Below, in pieces: positions 4,682 through 17,437 of a stretch of 41,052 bases of DNA. Within the stretch, counting starts at the first letter, position 1; the number at the start of each line of letters is the position of its first letter. The notes under the pieces were generated by a model. That model saw nothing but the letters and a program-made list of their open reading frames with translations. It had not been told where the DNA came from and ran no database searches. A program made the position numbers and the translations under genes. The stretch comes from Erysipelotrichaceae bacterium. Its GTDB lineage: Bacteria; Bacillota_I; Bacilli_A; Erysipelotrichales; Coprobacillaceae. The stretch spans positions 1 to 41,052 of the forward strand of contig JAJQFG010000044.1 in NCBI GenBank assembly GCA_021201315.1. The letters run 5' to 3'.

Positions 4682-5849
4682 GATTTTCTTTAATTCCTTT
4701 TTCAATAGCTTCTAAAGCTTGTTTTAAGGTACTGCGAGGACAAGCTACATTAAATCTTTCAAAACCTTCGCCACCAGTTCCAAAAATATAACCTTCATCC
4801 AACCATAATTTAGCCTTATGAAGCATAAAATCTTCTAATTCTTTTGGTTTTAAATTTAATGCTCTAAAATCAACCCAAATCAAATATAAACCTTCAGGTT
4901 TAATCACTTTAATTTCAGGTAATCTTGTTTCAAAGAAATTAATCATATAATCAATATTACCTTGCAAATATTCTAATAACTCATCAACCCACTTATCACC
5001 ATAAGTATAAGCAGCTTGACATGCATCCATACCAAAGATATTTGGATCTGTTACCCCAGAAGCCTGTTTTTCTGCTTTATATAGTTTTCTTAATGTCTCA
5101 TTAGGAATAATAATATTAGATGTTTGAAGTGCTGCTAAGTTAAATGTTTTAGAAGGTGCACTACATATAATCGTAAAGTCTTTATAACTTTCATCAACCT
5201 CAATAAATGGTACATGTATATGTCCTTCATATACAAAATCCATATGAATTTCATCACTTACTACAATAACATGATGTTTTTTACATATATCACCTATTTG
5301 TTTTAATTCTTCTTTTGTCCATACTTTACCAATTGGATTATGTGGATTACAAAGAATAAACATTTTGACGTCATTATCAATAATCTTTTGTTCAAATAAG
5401 TTAAAATCACATTCATAATGATCATCTTTTAATACTAATGGACATTCGATAACATTTCTATTTCTACCTTTAATAGAAAAATCAAATGGATAATATACTG
5501 GTTTCATAATTAAGATATTATCATTCTCTTTTGTATAAGTACTGACTGCTAATCTTAAAGCTGTCACAACACCTGTTGTAGTAACAATCCAATCCTTTTC
5601 AATGTGGAATTGATGACGTCTATCCATCCAATCAATTACAGCTTGTAAATAATCATCAGTAACACCTGCATAACCAAAAATACCATGTTGTGCTCTTTTA
5701 ACTAGTGCATCTTTAACTTCTGGAAGTGTTTCAAAGTCCATGTCAGCGACCCACATTGGTAATACTTCTGGATCATTTTGACAATGATCACCATCCCATT
5801 TAACACTATTTGTGTTTCTTCTTTCAATTACTTTATCAAAATCATACAT
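4671..5849 (-). CDS. PLP-dependent C-S lyase / aminotransferase of the PatB-MalY type
   Basis: 392 aa, fold-type I PLP enzyme. The opening (YDFDKVIERRNTNSVKWD, then LPMWVADMDF) is diagnostic of the PatB/MalY branch, whose members cleave the C-S bond of cystathionine or cysteine conjugates. Visible landmarks are CNPHNPIGKVW (168 onward), SDEIHMDF (D199) contacting the PLP ring, and SAPSKTFNLA with Schiff-base lysine K234. The length is normal for the family. It is the last gene of a four-gene minus-strand operon, and its start overlaps the end of the SpoU methyltransferase by 8 bases. Exact substrate (cystathionine, cysteine or a transaminase reaction) cannot be read from sequence. Confidence 0.9.
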   Translation of the reverse strand: MYDFDKVIERRNTNSVKWDGDHCQNDPEVLPMWVADMDFETLPEVKDALVKRAQHGIFGYAGVTDDYLQAVIDWMDRRHQFHIEKDWIVTTTGVVTALRLAVSTYTKENDNILIMKPVYYPFDFSIKGRNRNVIECPLVLKDDHYECDFNLFEQKIIDNDVKMFILCNPHNPIGKVWTKEELKQIGDICKKHHVIVVSDEIHMDFVYEGHIHVPFIEVDESYKDFTIICSAPSKTFNLAALQTSNIIIPNETLRKLYKAEKQASGVTDPNIFGMDACQAAYTYGDKWVDELLEYLQGNIDYMINFFETRLPEIKVIKPEGLYLIWVDFRALNLKPKELEDFMLHKAKLWLDEGYIFGTGGEGFERFNVACPRSTLKQALEAIEKGIKENQLL

Positions 5850-6582
5850 TTCCCCTCAATACCTTCCTTTCTTTAAACTCCTGTTTAGAAAAATGAAACA
5901 ACGTTAAACCTAACGCCATTGATAAATTCAATGAATCTATTTGTTCACTATGGGGTATAAATACACTCTTCCCATAGTTTAAATAACTATCATCCAAACC
6001 ACTGCTTTCATTACCAAATATTAATGTATGTATATTTTCTGTTTGTACATGATGAATATTGGTAGCTCCTTTTAACATAAGTGGATATATTTCGTGATGC
6101 TTATATAACTGATAATAACTTTCAAAATTATCAAAATATTGAACATTCAAATGAAATAGTGCTCCCATAGAAGCTCTTATCACCTTAGGATCATAAATAT
6201 CTACAGCTGGTCTAATAATTGCTAAGTTAACATAATCAAAGCCAAGCATTGTACGCATAATTGTCCCCATATTACCCATATCCATAGGATTAACCAATAC
6301 TACATGATTACCTTCATTCAAACTACTTTCATAAGTATCAAATACACCTATCGCAAAACAATTATTTTTAGGTGATAACTTGTCTATTGTCTTGTCATGA
6401 ATATCTATAGGAATATGATGTATTTTACATAATTGTTGTATTTTAGGATAACCTCTATTTTTTTCAATACTTGAATGTACAACAATTCTTTTTACATAAT
6501 TGGGTTTATTTTCCAACGATTCTATTGTTGGAAAAACACCTAATGTATAAGATTGACTGTCTCCTTTTTTATAAATCTTCAT
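5842..6582 (-). CDS. SpoU/TrmH-family RNA 2'-O-methyltransferase
   Basis: 246 aa SPOUT-fold enzyme using S-adenosylmethionine to methylate a ribose 2'-OH in tRNA or rRNA. The three SpoU motifs are present: NPMDMGNMGTIMRTMLGF (motif 1, with N and R), LIFGNESSGL (motif 2) and IPHSEQIDSLNLSMALGL (motif 3, knot region). An N-terminal extension of about 90 aa may aid RNA binding. The ATG at 6582 is preferred over 6588 because GGAG lies 7 bases before it but only 1 base before the upstream ATG. It overlaps the end of the Sel1-repeat gene by 14 bases, so translation is probably coupled. The target nucleotide is unknown. Confidence 0.9.
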   Translation of the reverse strand: MKIYKKGDSQSYTLGVFPTIESLENKPNYVKRIVVHSSIEKNRGYPKIQQLCKIHHIPIDIHDKTIDKLSPKNNCFAIGVFDTYESSLNEGNHVVLVNPMDMGNMGTIMRTMLGFDYVNLAIIRPAVDIYDPKVIRASMGALFHLNVQYFDNFESYYQLYKHHEIYPLMLKGATNIHHVQTENIHTLIFGNESSGLDDSYLNYGKSVFIPHSEQIDSLNLSMALGLTLFHFSKQEFKERKVLRGNV

Positions 6583-7702
6583 GGCCATACTCCTTTAATA
6601 TTCTTTGATTTTCACTTTCTATTTCATGTGCTTTTTTCAAATAATATTCAACCTTTTGTATGTCAGCATCAACATATTGTCCAAAACGATAAAACTGAGC
6701 TAAAGTAATACAAGCCACTTGACAATGCATATCCACAGCTTGATTCAAATAATGAATACCCACGTTCTTTTCTTTTTCTAATAAACCATGTTCCAATTGT
6801 AGTAATGCTAATTCATAAGTACAATCACCATCAAATAAATAATAACCATATTCAAAATACTTTTGAGCAAGATTTTCATCTTTATCAACACCCAAACCTG
6901 TTTTTAAATAAGTAGCTGTTTTATATAAACAATGACTATCAAACATCCTGGCTCCTTGATAAAAAGCTTTAAATGCTCCAGAATAATCTCTATAATATTC
7001 TAATATATAACCACTATAAAAATACGCTTCAGCTTCATGACTCTTTTGAAGATATGCTAATGCCTTATCAAAATCTTTCTTATCTTTAGATCCAAACAAA
7101 TACATCATACCTAATCTCAAACATGTTTTATCATCATCATTAGACTCATAATAAAGTATCGCTTTTTCAACATTTTTTTCAATTCCCCAACCATGTTCAT
7201 ACATTTGCCCTAAATAATAAGCACAATCATGATAACCCAAACTATAAAGATACGAATAAATCTTAAACGCTTCTTCATAATCCTGAGCAACACCAAATCC
7301 ATCATAATAACATTTAGCTACCATCGCAAGATGACCTGTATCACCATGTTCATAACTTTGTTGAGCTAACTCATCCATATTAGCTACTGTAAAATAATAA
7401 CCAATCTCATTCAACAACCTCACAAAAACAGCTACCATAAAGACAGCTTCTTTTTCACTTAATTGAAATTGCTTAATCAAATATTCTACATAACCCTTTA
7501 TATCAATATTTTGATCAAAAATCATCACATCAAAGATGCCAGCCTTCATACCTAAAACAACCAAATAACACTCATCCATCAATGATGTTGCTTCATCATT
7601 TAAAGCTTCCTCAAAACGATCATAATCATAGCGAATACCATCACCATATTCATCCATGACATTCATAACCGCTTTCACTATATCAATATCTAAAATAGCC
7701 AT
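6569..7702 (-). CDS. Sel1-like tetratricopeptide repeat protein
   Basis: 377 aa. From about residue 115 onward it has Sel1-type repeats, e.g. HLAMVAKCYYDGFGVAQDYEEAF and CAYYLGQMYEHGWGIEKNVEKAI, with the A-x2-LG-x2-Y-x2-G-x-G pattern. These form helical hairpins that scaffold protein interactions. The first 110 residues are helical and acidic and belong to no family I recognise. No signal peptide or membrane segment, so probably cytosolic. The start codon shares its A with the stop of the upstream gene (TAATG), so coupled translation is expected. Whether it acts with the neighbouring methyltransferase is unknown. Confidence 0.85.
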   Translation of the reverse strand: MAILDIDIVKAVMNVMDEYGDGIRYDYDRFEEALNDEATSLMDECYLVVLGMKAGIFDVMIFDQNIDIKGYVEYLIKQFQLSEKEAVFMVAVFVRLLNEIGYYFTVANMDELAQQSYEHGDTGHLAMVAKCYYDGFGVAQDYEEAFKIYSYLYSLGYHDCAYYLGQMYEHGWGIEKNVEKAILYYESNDDDKTCLRLGMMYLFGSKDKKDFDKALAYLQKSHEAEAYFYSGYILEYYRDYSGAFKAFYQGARMFDSHCLYKTATYLKTGLGVDKDENLAQKYFEYGYYLFDGDCTYELALLQLEHGLLEKEKNVGIHYLNQAVDMHCQVACITLAQFYRFGQYVDADIQKVEYYLKKAHEIESENQRILKEYGHEDL

Positions 7703-8100: not shown

Positions 8101-8733
8101 ATGGATAAAAAACAACTGTATGAATTATTTGGGATTGAAACAACTAATGAATTAATAAAAAACTTGCAAAATGAAAATAGTCATTATAATAAACATAAAA
8201 AATACGAAGGAGAAACCTCCATTGAACAATATTGTTTAGATTTAAAAAAACGTGGTATTGATTTTAGTGAAGAAGCTGTTTTATCATTATATGAAATGGT
8301 ACAGGATGTGCAGACGCTTTGGGATTATTATTATCAAAAAGATGAAAGGAAATGGATAAATATTGATGATCAACCTAATCTTCCTTTTAATTCTGATTCA
8401 TTATTTACTTATATTAAGAGGATTGTTGAAAAACATTACAATATTTATGATTCCATGGATATTTATTATATTAAACAAAATTTTATTAATTTAGAGAATT
8501 ATCCAAAAAAAGAATTCCAACAAACATTTATGCATCATCTAATCATACTTACAAATTATGCCAATATCCATGATATTCATAACTTATATGAACTTATCCC
8601 AGACTTTGATATGAACGAATTAATAAAGCAATATATTAAACGATGCCATAATCGTAACTATCAATTTAAAGAAATGATGAAAAGATTTTATGCAACATTC
8701 AATGATGCTGATACATCAATATATAAAATATAA
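8101..8733 (+). CDS. Protein of unknown function, first gene of the GH13-GNAT operon
   Basis: 210 aa, unrecognised. It is soluble, without signal peptide or membrane segments, rich in N, Y, D and K, and probably mostly helical. The ATG at 8101 follows AAGGAG (8089-8094) and lies just behind the palindromic promoter, so the start is secure. The next gene begins 10 bases after its stop, so the two are co-transcribed. It could be a regulator or partner of the downstream glucosidase, but no DNA-binding motif is recognisable. Confidence 0.7.
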   Translation: MDKKQLYELFGIETTNELIKNLQNENSHYNKHKKYEGETSIEQYCLDLKKRGIDFSEEAVLSLYEMVQDVQTLWDYYYQKDERKWINIDDQPNLPFNSDSLFTYIKRIVEKHYNIYDSMDIYYIKQNFINLENYPKKEFQQTFMHHLIILTNYANIHDIHNLYELIPDFDMNELIKQYIKRCHNRNYQFKEMMKRFYATFNDADTSIYKI

Positions 8734-8743
8734 GGAGGAAACA

Positions 8744-10909
8744 ATGAACGACTGGTGGAAAAAAGAAATAGTTTATCAAATATATCCTAGAAGTTTCTAT
8801 GATAGTAATAATGATGGTATTGGTGATATTCAAGGAATTATTCAAAAGTTAGATTATTTAAGTGATTTAGGAGTAACTATGCTTTGGATATGTCCTATAT
8901 ATCAATCACCAATGGATGATAATGGTTATGATATATCTGATTATTATGATATTAATCCTGAATTTGGAACAATGGATGATGTTGATGAGCTTATTAGTGA
9001 AGCAAACAAAAGAAATATAAAGATTATTATGGATTTGGTTATTAATCATACTTCTGATGAGCATCCTTGGTTTCAAGAAGCAATAAAGGATCCTCAAAGC
9101 CCTAAACATGATTATTATATTTTTAAGCATTCCAAGGAAAGACCTAACAATTGGCGTAGTGTTTTTGGTGGATCTGTTTGGCAAAAGGTTGATGGTAGAG
9201 ATGAATATTATTTTCATTCATTTTCTAAGAAACAGCCTGATTTAAATTGGGAAAATGAAGAATTAAGAAAAGAATTATATAAAATGATTAATTGGTGGTT
9301 GGATAAGGGTATTAGTGGATTTAGAGTTGATGCAATTAATTTTATTAAAAAGGATCAAAGTTACCAAGATGGTATCGTTGATGGACATGATGGTTTAAGT
9401 GCATGTTTCCCTTATACAAGAAATCAGCCAGGCATTGAAGTATTCTTTAAGGAATTAAGAGAAGAAACATTTGATAAATATCATTGTATGACAGTTGCTG
9501 AAGCGGTTGGTGTAAAGTATTCTGATTTAGGTATATTTATTGGCGAAGATGGTTGTTTTTCTATGATGTTTGATTTTAATTATTGTAATTTTGATATTAA
9601 TGAAGATGAAGAATGGTTTAGAAGACAAAATTGGACAATCAAAGAATTTAGAGATTTGTTGTTTACAAGTCAAAAAGAAGTACAAAAGTTAGGATGGATT
9701 GCATCATTTTTAGAAAATCATGATCAACCACGCTCTATTGATAAATTTATTGATAAAAAAGATCATAATTATTATTCAAAGACATTATTAGCAGGGATGT
9801 TTTTTAATCTAAGAGGTACGCCTTTTATTTATCAAGGTGAAGAAATAGGTATGGAAAATTTTAATCGAGATAGCTTAAATGATTTTGATGATATTAGTTC
9901 ACATAGTCAGTATCAGCGTGCTATAGAAGAAGGATTTAGTCATGAAGAAGCAATGATATTTTTAAATCAAAGAAGTCGTGATAATACACGTGTACCAATG
10001 CAATGGGATGATACAAAATATGGAGGTTTCAGTAAACATAAGCCTTGGTTAAAGATGTGTGGTAATCAAGACACTATTAATGTAGAAAGTCAAATTAATG
10101 ATCCACATTCTATTTATAGTTTTTATAAAGCAATGATTCAAATACGTAAAAATGAAGAAACATTAATTTATGGTGATTTTAAGGCTATTGAAAATATCAA
10201 TGATAATATCATTGCTTATCAACGTATATATAACAATGAAATCATTACATGTTTATGTAACTTTTCTAATGAAATCATTAAAATACCTTATATATCAGGT
10301 AATGTATTACTTAATAACTATGATAAATATACGTTAAAACAATTACAACCTTATCAGTTTGTGATGATTAAAGGAATCAAAACACATGATTACTTTATGA
10401 CTAGTTATAGATTGGGGTTTTCTTTATGGAATAATAATGATATTAATTTAATGTTTTCATTATACGGACAAAAGGATGTAACACAATTTATTAGTGCTAA
10501 TGGTATTTTTACCAATGATGAAATTAAAGATAGATTAAAAAATGAAATCAATAATTATAATCAGTATCATATTCAATATTATCCATTATTTTCATTATTA
10601 GATCATAGTTTTATAGGTTGTTGTGGCTTAAGGCCTACTGATGAAAAGAATGTCTATGAAATAGGTTTTCATTTAAAAAAAGAATCTAGACATCAAGGTT
10701 TTGCAGCAGAAGCTGCAAAACAAGTTATTGATTACGCTTTTACATCACTACATGCTACAAAGATTATTGCAGGGCATCATCCAGAGAACATAGCTTCAAA
10801 AGCGCTTATATCAAACCTAGGTTTTAAATATATTCAGGATAACTATTATGAACCTACTGGATTAATGCATCCAACTTATGAAATAAGAAAGGAAAAATTT
10901 TATGCATAA
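8744..10909 (+). CDS. GH13 alpha-glucosidase fused to a C-terminal GNAT acetyltransferase
   Basis: 721 aa. Residues 1-550 are a full-length GH13 alpha-glucosidase of the oligo-1,6-glucosidase/MalL type (starts WWKKEIVYQIYPRSFYDSN), cytosolic, acting on short malto- or isomalto-oligosaccharides. GFRVDAINF gives nucleophile D196, TVAEAVG gives acid/base E253, and LENHDQPR gives D327; QPDLNWEN is the family marker. The residue after the nucleophile is alanine. Valine there marks alpha-1,6 specificity in this family, so alpha-1,4 activity is more likely. Residues 552-721 are a complete GNAT domain (MTSYRLGFSLWNNNDINLMF..., acetyl-CoA loop RHQGFAAEA). The frame is uninterrupted at the junction. 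ATG 8744 follows AAGGAGG; the longer frame to 8690 was rejected. Its stop overlaps rlmA by 8 bases. Confidence 0.9.
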   Translation: MNDWWKKEIVYQIYPRSFYDSNNDGIGDIQGIIQKLDYLSDLGVTMLWICPIYQSPMDDNGYDISDYYDINPEFGTMDDVDELISEANKRNIKIIMDLVINHTSDEHPWFQEAIKDPQSPKHDYYIFKHSKERPNNWRSVFGGSVWQKVDGRDEYYFHSFSKKQPDLNWENEELRKELYKMINWWLDKGISGFRVDAINFIKKDQSYQDGIVDGHDGLSACFPYTRNQPGIEVFFKELREETFDKYHCMTVAEAVGVKYSDLGIFIGEDGCFSMMFDFNYCNFDINEDEEWFRRQNWTIKEFRDLLFTSQKEVQKLGWIASFLENHDQPRSIDKFIDKKDHNYYSKTLLAGMFFNLRGTPFIYQGEEIGMENFNRDSLNDFDDISSHSQYQRAIEEGFSHEEAMIFLNQRSRDNTRVPMQWDDTKYGGFSKHKPWLKMCGNQDTINVESQINDPHSIYSFYKAMIQIRKNEETLIYGDFKAIENINDNIIAYQRIYNNEIITCLCNFSNEIIKIPYISGNVLLNNYDKYTLKQLQPYQFVMIKGIKTHDYFMTSYRLGFSLWNNNDINLMFSLYGQKDVTQFISANGIFTNDEIKDRLKNEINNYNQYHIQYYPLFSLLDHSFIGCCGLRPTDEKNVYEIGFHLKKESRHQGFAAEAAKQVIDYAFTSLHATKIIAGHHPENIASKALISNLGFKYIQDNYYEPTGLMHPTYEIRKEKFYA

Positions 10910-13607: not shown

Positions 13608-14816
13608 ATGGAAAAGTTAAAAAAATTGATAACCGATCAGCCTTTAATTCCTGTAGTATTTGTTTTGGCATGTATAAGTTGCTTTGCAATATGGAATGCT
13701 GCTCCATTGATTTCTTCAAAAGTAACAAGTAGTCCTAATACCTTATGGATTAAACAAGCTGTATTTTATATATTATCAGCTATAGTTGTTTATATAGTAT
13801 ATAGAATAGGCAATGAAGCTATTTATGATAATATATGGATTATATATGGTATTTTAATTGGATTATTAGTAATATTAGCTTTAGATCATTTTTTATATAA
13901 TTATGTATTTTACAAAGATGTGATTCCTTTAGTTCATACTTCCAATGGTGCAACATCCTGGATTAATTTACCAGGATTTAGTTTACAACCTTCAGAATTT
14001 ATGAAAATAGCTATGATTATTGCGTTAGCTAGAGTAACTAAAGAACATAATGATTATTATTTGATTAAATCTTTAGAAACAGAATTAAGATATATTGGTA
14101 AATGTTTAGCAGTGGTTTTACCACCAACAATTCTAGTTTATTTACAAAATGATTCTGGAGTTGCGATGATTTTATTGGTTGGTTTTGTATTTGTGATGTT
14201 TGCTAGTGGTTTAAGAGGTCAATGGTTTGCTTTTGGTATTAGTGCATTGGTTATTATTATAGGTGCTGGTGCATATCTCTATGTTTATCAGCCAGATATT
14301 TTTGCTAGTTTGATGAGTGCTCATCAAGTTAAAAGATTTGCAGGATGGTTGGATCCTGAAGGAACGATTGCTGATGAAGGTTATCAATTATTTTATTCGT
14401 TATTATCATATGGTACAGCAGGATGGTTTGGTCATGGATTCCAATCAGTTATTAAGTCTTTCCCAGAAGCACAAACAGATTTTATCTTTGCAGTTATTTT
14501 AACTGATTTTGGTTATATTGGTGGTATTATTACTGTTTTAGCCATTGTTGCTTTAGATGTGACTATTTTAAGGATTGGTTTTGAATCTACCAATGATCGA
14601 GATAAATATATGACAATGGGTATTATTGGAATGATGATGTTTCAGCAGATTTGGAATATGGGTATGATATTAGGATTGTTACCTATTACTGGTATTACAT
14701 TACCGTTTATATCCTATGGAGGATCTTCACTATTATCTTATATGATTTCTATTGGTATGTTTTTAGATGTTAATTCACAAAATAATATTGTTAAAAATAG
14801 AAATATTGTAGTTTAA
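13608..14816 (+). CDS. SEDS-family peptidoglycan glycosyltransferase (FtsW/RodA)
   Basis: 402 aa polytopic membrane protein with about ten hydrophobic helices. SEDS proteins polymerise lipid II into glycan strands together with a class B penicillin-binding protein, in elongation (RodA), division (FtsW) or sporulation (SpoVE). Visible signatures are the LQPSEFMKIAMI motif, the loop PEAQTDFIFAVI carrying the conserved aspartate (D291) taken as catalytic, and the C-terminal GITLPFISYGGSS. ATG 13608 follows AAAGGAG; the frame's longer start at 13548 is the promoter -35. No cognate PBP is adjacent, so RodA versus FtsW cannot be settled. The lack of division-cluster neighbours leans to RodA. Confidence 0.9.
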   Translation: MEKLKKLITDQPLIPVVFVLACISCFAIWNAAPLISSKVTSSPNTLWIKQAVFYILSAIVVYIVYRIGNEAIYDNIWIIYGILIGLLVILALDHFLYNYVFYKDVIPLVHTSNGATSWINLPGFSLQPSEFMKIAMIIALARVTKEHNDYYLIKSLETELRYIGKCLAVVLPPTILVYLQNDSGVAMILLVGFVFVMFASGLRGQWFAFGISALVIIIGAGAYLYVYQPDIFASLMSAHQVKRFAGWLDPEGTIADEGYQLFYSLLSYGTAGWFGHGFQSVIKSFPEAQTDFIFAVILTDFGYIGGIITVLAIVALDVTILRIGFESTNDRDKYMTMGIIGMMMFQQIWNMGMILGLLPITGITLPFISYGGSSLLSYMISIGMFLDVNSQNNIVKNRNIVV

Positions 14817-14841
14817 GAACTATCATTGATAGTTCTTTTTT
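14815..14841 (+). terminator. Rho-independent terminator after the SEDS gene
   Basis: Stem AAGAACTATC/GATAGTTCTT with loop ATT, followed by TTTT; it begins at the stop codon. Confidence 0.85.
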
Positions 14842-14929
14842 GATAAAAAAGTATCATCAATTCATCATTTTACCATATAAATTCAAAAAGAAAATTGCAA
14901 CAGTTTACGAAAACCTTACTTTTATAAAA

Positions 14930-14958
14930 TCCTTTGTTAAAATACCACTAACAAAGGA
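14930..14958 (+). promoter_or_regulatory. Inverted repeat that overlaps the ribosome site of the EIIB-ROK gene
   Basis: Perfect 10-bp arms TCCTTTGTTA (14930-14939) and TAACAAAGGA (14949-14958) flank a 9-base spacer. The right arm contains the start of the Shine-Dalgarno AAAGGAGG (14953-14960). If transcribed it would sequester the ribosome site; as DNA it could be an operator. The nearest -10-like sequence is an AT-rich stretch around 14921-14929, without a convincing -35. Confidence 0.5.
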
Positions 14959-14964
14959 GGTTTC

Positions 14965-16371
14965 ATGATGGATGAATTTTTAAGTGATATTTATGTAAGT
15001 GTCTTTAGAAGATGGATTGTACTACAAGGAACTGATTTAGGACTTGTAGAAGATGAAAATAAAATATCATTAAATACTGATAGTACTGAAAGTTATATTA
15101 CTTTCAACAATAATAATATTATTGAATTATGTGTCTATAATAAGGTTAAGGATAATACTGAATTTTATCTTCATTTTCAAATGAAGAACCTCAAACATGC
15201 TGTAAATTTATTTGAAGAAATGAAAGCAACCATTGATAAAATTAGTACTAAACCATACATTAATGTGATGCTGTGTTGTTCAGGTGGCCTAACAACAAGT
15301 TTCTTTGCCCAAAAGATTAATGAAACTGTTGAATTGTTGGATCTCAATATTCATGTATCAGCAGTAGGTTATCAAAAATTATATCAAATTAAAGATGATT
15401 ACGATATTGTATTATTAGCGCCTCAAATATCTTATGAACTTGCTCAAGCTAAAGCTTTATTGAAAGATAAAATTGTTAAAGAAATACCAGCTGGTGTATT
15501 TGCAACATACGATGTTCATACAATATTGGATATCATTGAAGATAGTATGAAAGAATACCAAAATGATGAAAATAATCATCATAAAGAACGTATTTCTTTT
15601 CAAAGAAATACGGAAATCAAAGAAACAGTATTATGTCTATCAATATATAATAATAATCAACACAACTATATTAATTATCGTGTTTATCATCATCAACATA
15701 TAAAATTAGAAAAAGAAATAGTCAAAAATACTATTTCTTTAAACGATATTTATAGCGTTATTGATATTTGTTTATTAGATTTCCCTAAAATTAAAAAAAT
15801 AGCTATTTCAATACCTGGTATTGTCAATAATGGTCAAGTACTATCTACATTTGTAGAAAATGGTAATTGTCATTTAAAGGATATTTTAGAAAAAAAATAT
15901 AAGATTCAAGCTATTATTTCTAATGATGTTAATAGTGCAGCTTTAGGATATTATGCTTCTCAAAATCAATATGATTCATTTTGTTTTCTGTTTCAACCTA
16001 TTGGTATTGATGCAGGTTTAGGTACAGTTATTGATGGTAAGCTTATTACTGGAAATTCTAGTATTGCAGGAGAAGTAAAATTTTTACCTTTAGATTTATC
16101 ACAGCCAAAAGAAGAACTATATATAACACCAAAAGGAATATTAGAAGTTGTTTATAAACTTATATTAACGACTATATGTATCCTATCACCAACAGTTATC
16201 GTATTATACTGTGATTTGATTGATGATCCACAAATAGTTGAAGATAAGTTGAAAGAGAGTTTAAATGGACATGTAGAAAACTATCATATTAATATCATAA
16301 AGATAGATAATCTACAACAATATATATTATTAGGCTTATTTAATTTATGTATTGAAGATAGTTTCGATTAA
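14965..16371 (+). CDS. PTS EIIB (lactose/cellobiose type) fused to a divergent ROK domain
   Basis: 468 aa with three parts. Residues 1-95 are unrecognised. Residues 98-195 are an EIIB of the Lac/Cel family: INVMLCCSGGLTTSFFAQKI with phosphocysteine C105, and DIVLLAPQISYELAQAKALL. Residues about 217-468 follow the ROK (sugar kinase/regulator) pattern: IAISIPGIVNNGQVLSTF, SNDVNSAALGYY with the catalytic-type aspartate, and GLGTVIDGKLITGNSSIAGEVKF. The ROK glycine-rich ATP motif and the CxCGxxGC zinc site are not visible, so it may sense rather than phosphorylate sugars. No helix-turn-helix is evident. It could read PTS phosphorylation state; partner EIIA/EIIC genes are absent here. A second ATG at 14968 has slightly better spacing from AAAGGAGG. 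Confidence 0.75.
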   Translation: MMDEFLSDIYVSVFRRWIVLQGTDLGLVEDENKISLNTDSTESYITFNNNNIIELCVYNKVKDNTEFYLHFQMKNLKHAVNLFEEMKATIDKISTKPYINVMLCCSGGLTTSFFAQKINETVELLDLNIHVSAVGYQKLYQIKDDYDIVLLAPQISYELAQAKALLKDKIVKEIPAGVFATYDVHTILDIIEDSMKEYQNDENNHHKERISFQRNTEIKETVLCLSIYNNNQHNYINYRVYHHQHIKLEKEIVKNTISLNDIYSVIDICLLDFPKIKKIAISIPGIVNNGQVLSTFVENGNCHLKDILEKKYKIQAIISNDVNSAALGYYASQNQYDSFCFLFQPIGIDAGLGTVIDGKLITGNSSIAGEVKFLPLDLSQPKEELYITPKGILEVVYKLILTTICILSPTVIVLYCDLIDDPQIVEDKLKESLNGHVENYHINIIKIDNLQQYILLGLFNLCIEDSFD

Positions 16372-16417: not shown

Positions 16418-16434
16418 TTTAAATGGTGAAAGTT

Positions 16435-17142
16435 ATGAAAAAAGAGTTATATTTAAAGGGTGTTAAAGATGCTTTGCCTATTGGCGTGGGTTATTTTACA
16501 GTTTCTTTAACTTTTGGATTACAAGCTAGTATGGGTGGCTTGAGTATATTAGAAGCAACCGTATTTTCTCTAACATGTTTGTCATCTGCAGGTCAATTTG
16601 GTGGTTTGGAATTAATAATCGCACAAGCTAGCTATTTTGAGATTGCACTGACACAATTAATTCTTAATATGCGTTATATTTTAATGTCTACATCATTATC
16701 TCAAAAAATTGATAAAAGTGCATCAACTTTGCAAAGAATGATTGTTTCTTATGCTATTACCGATGAAATATATGGTGTATCTATGATGCAAGATGGTAGA
16801 ATTTCACCGTATTATTCTTATGGATTAATGACAAGTGGCATATTAGGTTGGGGAGCAGGTACATTTATTGGTGCAGCTTTAGGTAATATATTGCCATTAA
16901 GTATATTAAATGCCTTAGGTTTAGCTTTATATGGTATGTTTATAGCGATTATTATTCCTCCTGCTAAACATAATAACCAAATCATGATCATTGTTATTAC
17001 AACGATGATTGTTAGTAGCTTATTTGAAATATTACCACTGATTAATCAAATATCTAGTGGATTTAGAATTATCATTATTACCCTATTACTAGCATCATTA
17101 TTTGCTTATTTATTTCCTATAAAGGAGACTAATAATGAATAA
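16435..17142 (+). CDS. azlC: AzlC-family branched-chain amino acid exporter, large subunit
   Basis: 235 aa integral membrane protein. The opening ELYLKGVKDALPIGVGYFTVSLTFGLQA and the segment SLTCLSSAGQFGGLELI are characteristic of AzlC/YgaZ, which pairs with AzlD/YgaH to export branched-chain amino acids and analogues such as azaleucine. About six or seven hydrophobic segments are visible. ATG 16435 is preferred: GGTGA lies a few bases before it, and the alternative ATG at 16423 coincides with the predicted transcription start. Its stop overlaps azlD by 8 bases, the usual arrangement for the two-subunit transporter. Confidence 0.9.
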   Translation: MKKELYLKGVKDALPIGVGYFTVSLTFGLQASMGGLSILEATVFSLTCLSSAGQFGGLELIIAQASYFEIALTQLILNMRYILMSTSLSQKIDKSASTLQRMIVSYAITDEIYGVSMMQDGRISPYYSYGLMTSGILGWGAGTFIGAALGNILPLSILNALGLALYGMFIAIIIPPAKHNNQIMIIVITTMIVSSLFEILPLINQISSGFRIIIITLLLASLFAYLFPIKETNNE

Positions 17143-17437
17143 GACATATATATACATATTTATAATGGCATTAGTGACTTATCTTATTAGGGCTATTCCG
17201 CTAACATTTATCCATAAAGATATAAAAAATCTATTTATCAAATCATTCTTATATTACGTTCCCTATGTAACTTTATCAGCTATGGTATTCCCTTCAATAT
17301 TATCAAGTACAGGAAATATCTATACAGCTTTAGTTGGTTTTATAGTAGCTTTAGTTTTAGCATATAAAGAATGTAGTTTGACAACCGTTGCTTTTGTCGC
17401 TTGTTTGGCTGCTTTTATTACTGGTTTATGTATATGA
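17135..17437 (+). CDS. azlD: AzlD-family branched-chain amino acid exporter, small subunit
   Basis: 100 aa with four hydrophobic segments, the normal size for AzlD/YgaH. Characteristic features are TYLIRAIPLTF near the N-terminus and YVPYVTLSAMVFPSI in the middle. It should form the exporter with AzlC in the cytoplasmic membrane. ATG 17135 is preceded by AAAGGAG inside azlC, so expression is coupled. The stop codon is immediately followed by a strong hairpin shared with the convergent pseudouridine synthase gene. Confidence 0.9.
   Translation: MNKTYIYIFIMALVTYLIRAIPLTFIHKDIKNLFIKSFLYYVPYVTLSAMVFPSILSSTGNIYTALVGFIVALVLAYKECSLTTVAFVACLAAFITGLCI

Follow-up and report, generated by a model that had tools for sequence, protein, structure and literature searches.

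The 41,052-nucleotide stretch of DNA analysed here (the window) encodes a protein in which a small N-terminal domain, a Lac/Cel-type EIIB domain of the PTS and a ROK-fold domain follow one another in a single chain. This fusion is a real, conserved architecture and is undescribed within the literature searched; among open-access PMC papers, none describing an EIIB-ROK fusion was found by title or abstract. Because its site residues are conserved, the ATP and zinc motifs of its ROK domain are missing and its dN/dS is low, the fusion is a protein under constraint, whose EIIB loop looks live and whose ROK domain is not expected to use ATP. By analogy with Mlc and EIIBGlc, we give about even chances to its being a PTS-controlled, sugar-responsive ROK regulatory protein that would act through protein contact. 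The features of the locus are as follows.

14815–14837, + strand: terminator-like hairpin in the interval between the ftsW-like gene and the fusion gene (consensus match only)
14965–16371, + strand: EIIB-ROK fusion gene, 468 amino acids, ATG ATG start (ORF translation, Pfam, model)
14968–15255, + strand: N-terminal domain, residues 2–97, predicted alpha-beta5-alpha, TriTu-like fold
15124–15126, + strand: Glu54 codon, invariant in 77/77 N-domain ORFs
15172–15174, + strand: His70 codon, invariant in 77/77 N-domain ORFs, on predicted strand 64–72
15256–15564, + strand: Lac/Cel-type EIIB domain, residues 98–200 (Pfam and structure match)
15277–15300, + strand: phosphocysteine loop C105–S112, CSGGLTTS (sequence and alignments)
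15565–15618, + strand: linker, residues 201–218, with low model confidence at 202–206
15619–16368, + strand: ROK-fold domain, residues 219–468, lacking the ATP (DxGGT) and zinc (CxCG) motifs (Pfam, fold, alignment)
15922–15933, + strand: ROK NDVN motif (N320, D321, N323), 26/26 fused homologues
16072–16074, + strand: Glu370 of AGE, 26/26; the usual ExGH His is Phe or Tyr here
16423–17142, + strand: azlC, possibly co-transcribed with the fusion gene; the next + strand terminator-like site is at 17436
17135–17437, + strand: azlD (Pfam scan)

Architecture and selection

The earlier note, made from the letters of the sequence, had proposed this three-part architecture, and Pfam and sequence comparison, structure prediction and purifying selection concur on it. 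The full-length model, built with 26 aligned homologues, had a mean pLDDT of 83.4 and a pTM of 0.58, so that the placing of the domains relative to one another is uncertain. Compared with the corresponding gene of locus L028, dN was 0.054 and dS 0.469 (dN/dS approximately 0.11), and the ratio was well below 1 in each of the three domains. NCBIfam gave sub-cut-off matches only, chiefly to EIIB and ROK models. Conservation was read from alignment A2, which holds 26 full-length fused homologues (of 29 found, the incomplete L029, L042, L043 and L046 were left out), and from 77 ORFs carrying the N-terminal domain (N-domain ORFs), in loci that were mostly picked by matches to the whole protein.

The EIIB domain

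Pfam places PTS_IIB (PF02302) at residues 100–176, with an E value of 8.7e-10 and 39.6 bits against a cut-off of 23.6. In structure comparison, model residues 98–200 match IIBchb (2wy2) with Z 18.2 and an rmsd of 1.1 over 103 aligned residues, and 1iib with Z 17.6. C105 is the EIIB cysteine, and is retained in all 26 fused homologues and all 77 N-domain ORFs; the assignment of a Lac/Cel-type EIIB carrying this cysteine, made in the earlier note, is thus upheld. G108, T110, T111 and A152-P153-Q154 are also conserved in every sequence of A2. The fusion has its EIIB fold and phosphocysteine loop in common with the Lac/Cel EIIB subunits CelA and ChbB (PF02302), but these serve in transport as soluble subunits only some 105 residues long, whereas its EIIB forms the middle of a 468-residue protein. 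It misses the cut-off of TIGR00853 (pts-lac, Lac/Cel transporter subunit IIB), with 56.9 bits against 110. The window's genome contains 20 PTS_IIB domains, two Lac-type EIIA genes (PTS_IIA, PF02255) and HPr; the EIIA genes lie at C22:20471 and C49:1325.

Gene neighbourhoods

In the window the fusion gene is flanked by an ftsW-like (FtsW/RodA) gene upstream and by azlCD downstream. The statement of the earlier note that no HTH, EIIA or EIIC gene is nearby holds for the window, where none was found among ten flanking ORFs scanned with Pfam, the AzlC and FtsW/RodA ORFs that Pfam also identified, and the other ORFs, which were read by eye, but not for the family. Within three genes of the 77 N-domain ORFs we found RpiR regulators (19), HAD-Cof phosphatases (12), maltose-acetyltransferase-like genes (9), GH1 genes (8), orphan EIIB genes (7) and a single EIIC, at L166; ten such neighbour genes were verified with Pfam. 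At L124 the order is EIIB, RbsD, acetyltransferase, fusion, PHP, and at L130 it is EIIB, EIIB, fusion, RpiR. At L166 the PTS_EIIC gene is followed directly by a stand-alone N-domain-EIIB short form and then by HAD.

For comparison with background, the N-domain ORFs were grouped by shared neighbours into 37 synteny groups, and 217 positions from 40 spaced regions of the same family served as controls. One or more of eight sugar families turned up in 19/37 groups and at 34/217 controls, with a p value of 5e-7 that is optimistic, since the families were chosen after looking. With RpiR, EIIB, GH1 and EIIC only, the counts were 11/37 and 26/217 (p 0.003). RpiR by itself was modestly enriched (7/37 groups against 22/217 controls), and EIIC alone was not (1/37 against 6/217).

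The neighbours vary by genus, and an operon partner as the key to function was rejected, no single partner being common to all. L028 and L029, which are near relatives of the window, also have the fusion gene between ftsW-like and azlCD genes, while in L030, L031 and L055 it comes after hprK and lgt, as identified by eye. At six loci it precedes a BrxF-like P-loop gene, the family having been tested on two copies. These small proteins match NF033453 with 79 and 81 bits against 50 (L021 2735–3163 and L037 7530–7958, with further loci); in several genera the gene comes after one of the fused paralogues, and no other BREX gene was noticed nearby. A perfect inverted repeat at 14930–14958 spans the ribosome-binding site of the fusion gene. 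It was dropped as a regulatory hairpin: its folding energy is ordinary (z -0.92), and it is not kept in L028 and only partly in L029. Elsewhere in the window, the + strand gene at 8690–10909 encodes a GH13 alpha-glucosidase-like enzyme with a C-terminal GNAT acetyltransferase (Pfam Alpha-amylase 30–495, Acetyltransf_3 574–713), and a long ORF occupies the corresponding position in L028 and L029.

These neighbourhoods bear on whether the fused EIIB is a working transport subunit, passing phosphate to an EIIC encoded elsewhere, with the ROK part as a regulatory or leftover appendage. Such a role would suit the universal active-site cysteine, the position of the short form right behind the EIIC gene at L166, and the short forms that adjoin GH1 genes at L149, L154, L160 and L162. 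However, none of the 45 fused ORFs has a gene of the EIIC cluster used among its three nearest genes on either side, and a single genome contains four fused copies, one of them interrupted by a stop, along with three short forms, all at scattered places. The ROK-site residues, moreover, are invariant in 26/26 homologues, so that the ROK part is not drifting. We regard a transport role as rather unlikely and favour the regulatory reading.

The ROK domain

Pfam places ROK (PF00480) at residues 242–372 (E 2.9e-16, 60.3 bits against a cut-off of 22.9). ROK kinases and repressors match the model from residue 214 on with Z scores of up to 23.1, the best being the kinase 4htl (residues 220–467, rmsd 2.6 over 236). 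Structure prediction thus returned both of the folds named in the earlier note, EIIB and ROK. That note had also described the ATP and zinc motifs as lost, and the alignment bears this out: none of the 26 fused homologues has the ATP phosphate motif DxGGT, and none has CxC[G/N] of the zinc motif CxCGxxGC. P284-G285, N320, D321, N323, G351, G353, G369 and E370 are conserved in 26/26. D321 retains the NDxN position, which is that of the catalytic base in ROK kinases. The His of the usual ExGH, a sugar-contacting residue, is replaced by Phe or Tyr throughout.

An ATP-dependent sugar kinase was rejected as the main reading: both motifs are absent in 26/26, and the DNA-binding ROK relatives also retain NDxN and GE (8/8). 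NagC/XylR-type ROK repressors share the fold (Lmo0178, 5f7r, Z 21.0; MecR2, 4ija, Z 20.9), but they carry a winged helix where the fusion has the N-domain and EIIB, and the fusion lacks their zinc motif. No winged helix or other HTH was found at its N terminus, either by Pfam or in the N-domain model. By its defining motifs, the protein is a member of neither the ROK kinases nor the ROK repressors.

A kinase of another kind would be driven by PEP, with the EIIB phosphocysteine replacing ATP as donor to a free cytosolic sugar in the ROK pocket. A phosphodonor domain is indeed fused beside the ROK domain, and D321 and the sugar-site Glu E370 are present in all 26 homologues while the ATP motif is missing from all of them. 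The presence of NDxN and GE does not imply catalysis, however, because the DNA-binding relatives have both; the Tyr or Phe in place of the ExGH His also argues against this activity, as do the many short EIIBs that have no ROK domain. We consider a PEP-driven kinase very unlikely.

The N-terminal domain

No Pfam family matched residues 1–98 at E ≤ 1 when the whole protein was scanned, and the N-domain scanned alone gave just two matches, both sub-cut-off (E 0.025 and 0.06). Folded alone with 27 sequences (alignment A3; pLDDT 91.5, pTM 0.81), it is predicted to form a helix, five strands and a helix. The best PDB match in Foldseek was the immunity protein TriTu (7zhm_C, E 1.7e-3; next 0.099), and VIA-align also ranked 7zhm first, with Z 9.6 and an rmsd of 2.0 over 79 of 87 residues. 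Frataxin (Z 8.5) and the secretion chaperone SycT (Z 8.0) came close behind, and identity to TriTu in the structural alignment was 11%. The proposal in the earlier note that the first 95 residues are a new domain stands in that no Pfam family covers them; a new fold was rejected, TriTu topping both programs.

At the sequence level, 0/27 N-domains match Pfam TriTu (PF24689). The same family matches a stand-alone short form with E 3e-5 (24.2 bits against 27) and two split forms with E 0.027 and 0.032, all under the cut-off. Searches of PDB sequences with a profile of 18 N-domains, and with one short form, gave no TriTu chain at E 10. The N-domain is likely to be homologous to TriTu. A passage in PMC10469887 pairs TriTu with the effector TreTu, the PDB title of 7zhm has it binding a type VI effector, and a passage in a viral-fold paper (PMC12487901) reports a broadly TriTu-like fold for the antitoxin KreA. 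Since TriTu and KreA use similar folds, the predicted fold of the N-domain seems to be one used in protein contacts.

The 77 N-domain sequences diverge widely, except that Glu54 and His70 are present in all of them and Y68 in 72, with Phe in the other five. EIIB follows the N-domain in every one of these ORFs. A profile of the N-domain matched 18 of 392 Bacillota genomes, and the matches listed lie in open frames of 198–239 or 433–496 residues, bar two (125 and 44). The 125-residue frame (match G028:C109:52620-52880) is a possible N-domain without EIIB.

Residues 66, 68, 70 and 72 alternate on predicted strand 64–72, and Glu54 is on the neighbouring strand 52–59; from this strand pattern, Glu54 and His70 are probably next to each other on the sheet's open face. 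Because these two residues are invariant on neighbouring strands and no full-length frame was seen to have the N-domain without the EIIB phosphocysteine, the N-domain might be a new phosphate-handling PTS domain, the EIIB and its built-in partner acting as a soluble phosphorelay that would feed the ROK sensor. His70 could then accept phosphate from C105, donate it to C105 or help to hydrolyse it from there. We judge this distinctly improbable.

An immunity or antitoxin-like protein, in which EIIB and ROK would sense when to release a partner of the N-domain, is suggested by TriTu as best fold match and by the likeness to KreA. Frataxin and the secretion chaperones, though, score nearly as high, no N-domain of A3 reaches the TriTu family, and the N-domain is with EIIB in 77/77. 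The ten flanking ORFs of the window, two of which matched nothing, contain no Pfam toxin family. The chances of an immunity role are slim.

A two-gene form of the system

At seven loci (L057–L063), a gene for an N-domain-EIIB protein of 203–230 residues is followed directly, on the same strand, by a ROK gene of 309–337 residues; at L058, for instance, the two genes span 5762–6394 and 6395–7387. The ROK partners of five of the seven were scanned with Pfam, and 5/5 exceeded the ROK cut-off. HTH_24 was over its cut-off in one of them (E 8e-7) and below it in two; one more had a weak DeoR-type match, and one had no HTH. The ROK gene of the split pair, which resembles NagC/XylR-type repressors, is on these motifs a probable repressor (wHTH-ROK). 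The output, left open in the earlier note, is narrowed by these loci, although the fused form itself has no such helix.

In a tree of N-domain-EIIB sequences (quick method, no bootstrap, midpoint root), 45/45 fused copies fall in a clade of 47 (SH-aLRT 99), together with one broken copy and the short form L149. The split copies are the nearest neighbours of this clade (85), and 19 of the 21 plain short forms belong to neither group; EIIB thus often works here without this ROK. At L066, L150 and L151 the short gene is in the same setting, and the ROK gene is absent. This tree is compatible with a single fusion. In the ROK tree, the fused rows do not make one clade and their branching is not resolved; next to them stands a starred clade (99/96) of split and orphan wHTH-ROK proteins. 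The root is far, and this tree does not settle the direction of fusion. The simplest history would be that an N-domain-EIIB protein paired with a wHTH-ROK regulator and was then fused to a helix-less ROK.

Orphan wHTH-ROK genes occur at L074–L076, L092 and L094, with an adjoining PHP-domain-like gene in L075, L076, L092 and L094; the same order of wHTH-ROK and PHP-domain-like gene is seen in L027 of the window's genome. In L027, two tandem EIIB-like genes (about 150 aa; 14058–15012, + strand) also lie just before a ROK kinase gene (15009–15881), with no EIIC seen in the stretch, which makes a further neighbourhood of EIIB and ROK genes in this genome.

Distribution

The fusion is present in 36/43 genomes of the window's bacterial family (rows read by eye; in G023 the match stops short at residue 400 of 468), and was not found in G006, G007, G008, G034, G037, G038 and G042. 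A set of 296 genomes from the class, 11 of them members of this family, contained one carrier outside the family, G158, and the N-domain profile search over Bacillota added G451, with a fused copy of 476 aa. These are the only two genomes found outside the family, and both are of the same order. Named carriers are Thomasclavelia, Massilimicrobiota, Longibaculum, Stoquefichus and Sharpea; some records are labelled Hungatella. Besides the gene in the window, the same genome has three full-length fused copies, of which one contains an in-frame stop, as well as three N-domain-EIIB proteins of the short form. The interrupted paralogue, C122 (L023 8584–10080, - strand), has a TAA near residue 28, which may reflect a pseudogene, strain variation or an assembly error. 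At L064 the gene is broken between EIIB and ROK. That these two copies point to a functionless fusion, in decay or formed by chance, has next to no probability and, for the family as a whole, is refuted by conservation, with the fusion in most family genomes and purifying selection on all three domains.

Proposed function and relation to known systems

Under the regulatory reading, C105 would receive phosphate via EI, HPr and a Lac/Cel-type EIIA while PTS sugars are in short supply, and would lose it once sugar flow drains the phosphate. The ROK pocket would bind a sugar or sugar phosphate, and phosphorylation and ligand together would determine the protein's conformation. For the split form, this predicts a ROK repressor that binds or leaves its DNA according to these signals, much as Mlc responds to EIIBGlc. 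Because the fused form has no DNA-binding helix, it probably acts by protein contact; its partner may be a helix-bearing ROK protein, an RpiR regulator or a PTS protein, met perhaps through the open face of the N-terminal domain. This output is proposed by analogy with Mlc. The sensor suggested in the earlier note, joining PTS state and sugar binding, is consistent with all the evidence, phosphorylation and ligand being putative.

The support for this reading comes from the EIIB and ROK folds (Z 18.2 and 23.1), C105 and NDxN with AGE in 26/26, the loss of the ATP and zinc motifs, the split pairs and their place in the N-domain-EIIB tree, the PTS genes of the genome, the sugar-gene neighbours and the low dN/dS. 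The window's own neighbours, FtsW/RodA and AzlCD, are not sugar genes and weigh against it, as do the change of neighbours between genera, the lack of EIIC enrichment, the scattered fused rows of the ROK tree, the short forms that fall outside the fused and split groups, the missed TIGR00853 cut-off and the different family of EIIBGlc.

The closest known pair is Mlc and EIIBGlc of E. coli, likewise a ROK protein and an EIIB domain that signal together. The Mlc structure 3bp8_A matches residues 215–468 of the fusion (Z 18.8), but Mlc is a separate protein with a DNA-binding helix, whereas here a Lac/Cel-type EIIB is fused to a ROK domain without one. EIIBGlc belongs to another PTS EIIB family than PF02302. 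PRD-type regulators such as MtlR and LicR contain an EIIB-like domain and are controlled by PTS phosphorylation. They and the fusion combine a regulator, putative in the fusion, with an EIIB-like domain; the fusion has a ROK sensor, and no PRD or HTH, Pfam finding PTS_IIB and ROK only. In E. coli, according to a passage in PMC3901232, dephosphorylated EIICBGlc takes Mlc off its operator. TriTu (7zhm, PF24689), the best fold match of the N-domain, differs in binding a type VI effector.

The fused and two-gene forms tie EIIB to a ROK regulator beyond the case of Mlc. The invariant Glu and His of the small, unnamed N-terminal domain, always seen beside the phosphocysteine, are an unexplained feature. 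For a genome with far more Lac-type EIIB domains (20) than EIIAs (two), the family offers a testable reason, namely that some EIIBs may be signalling domains. To our knowledge, sugar choice in gut Erysipelotrichia is little studied, and the fusion looks like an undescribed sugar-sensing route in these bacteria.
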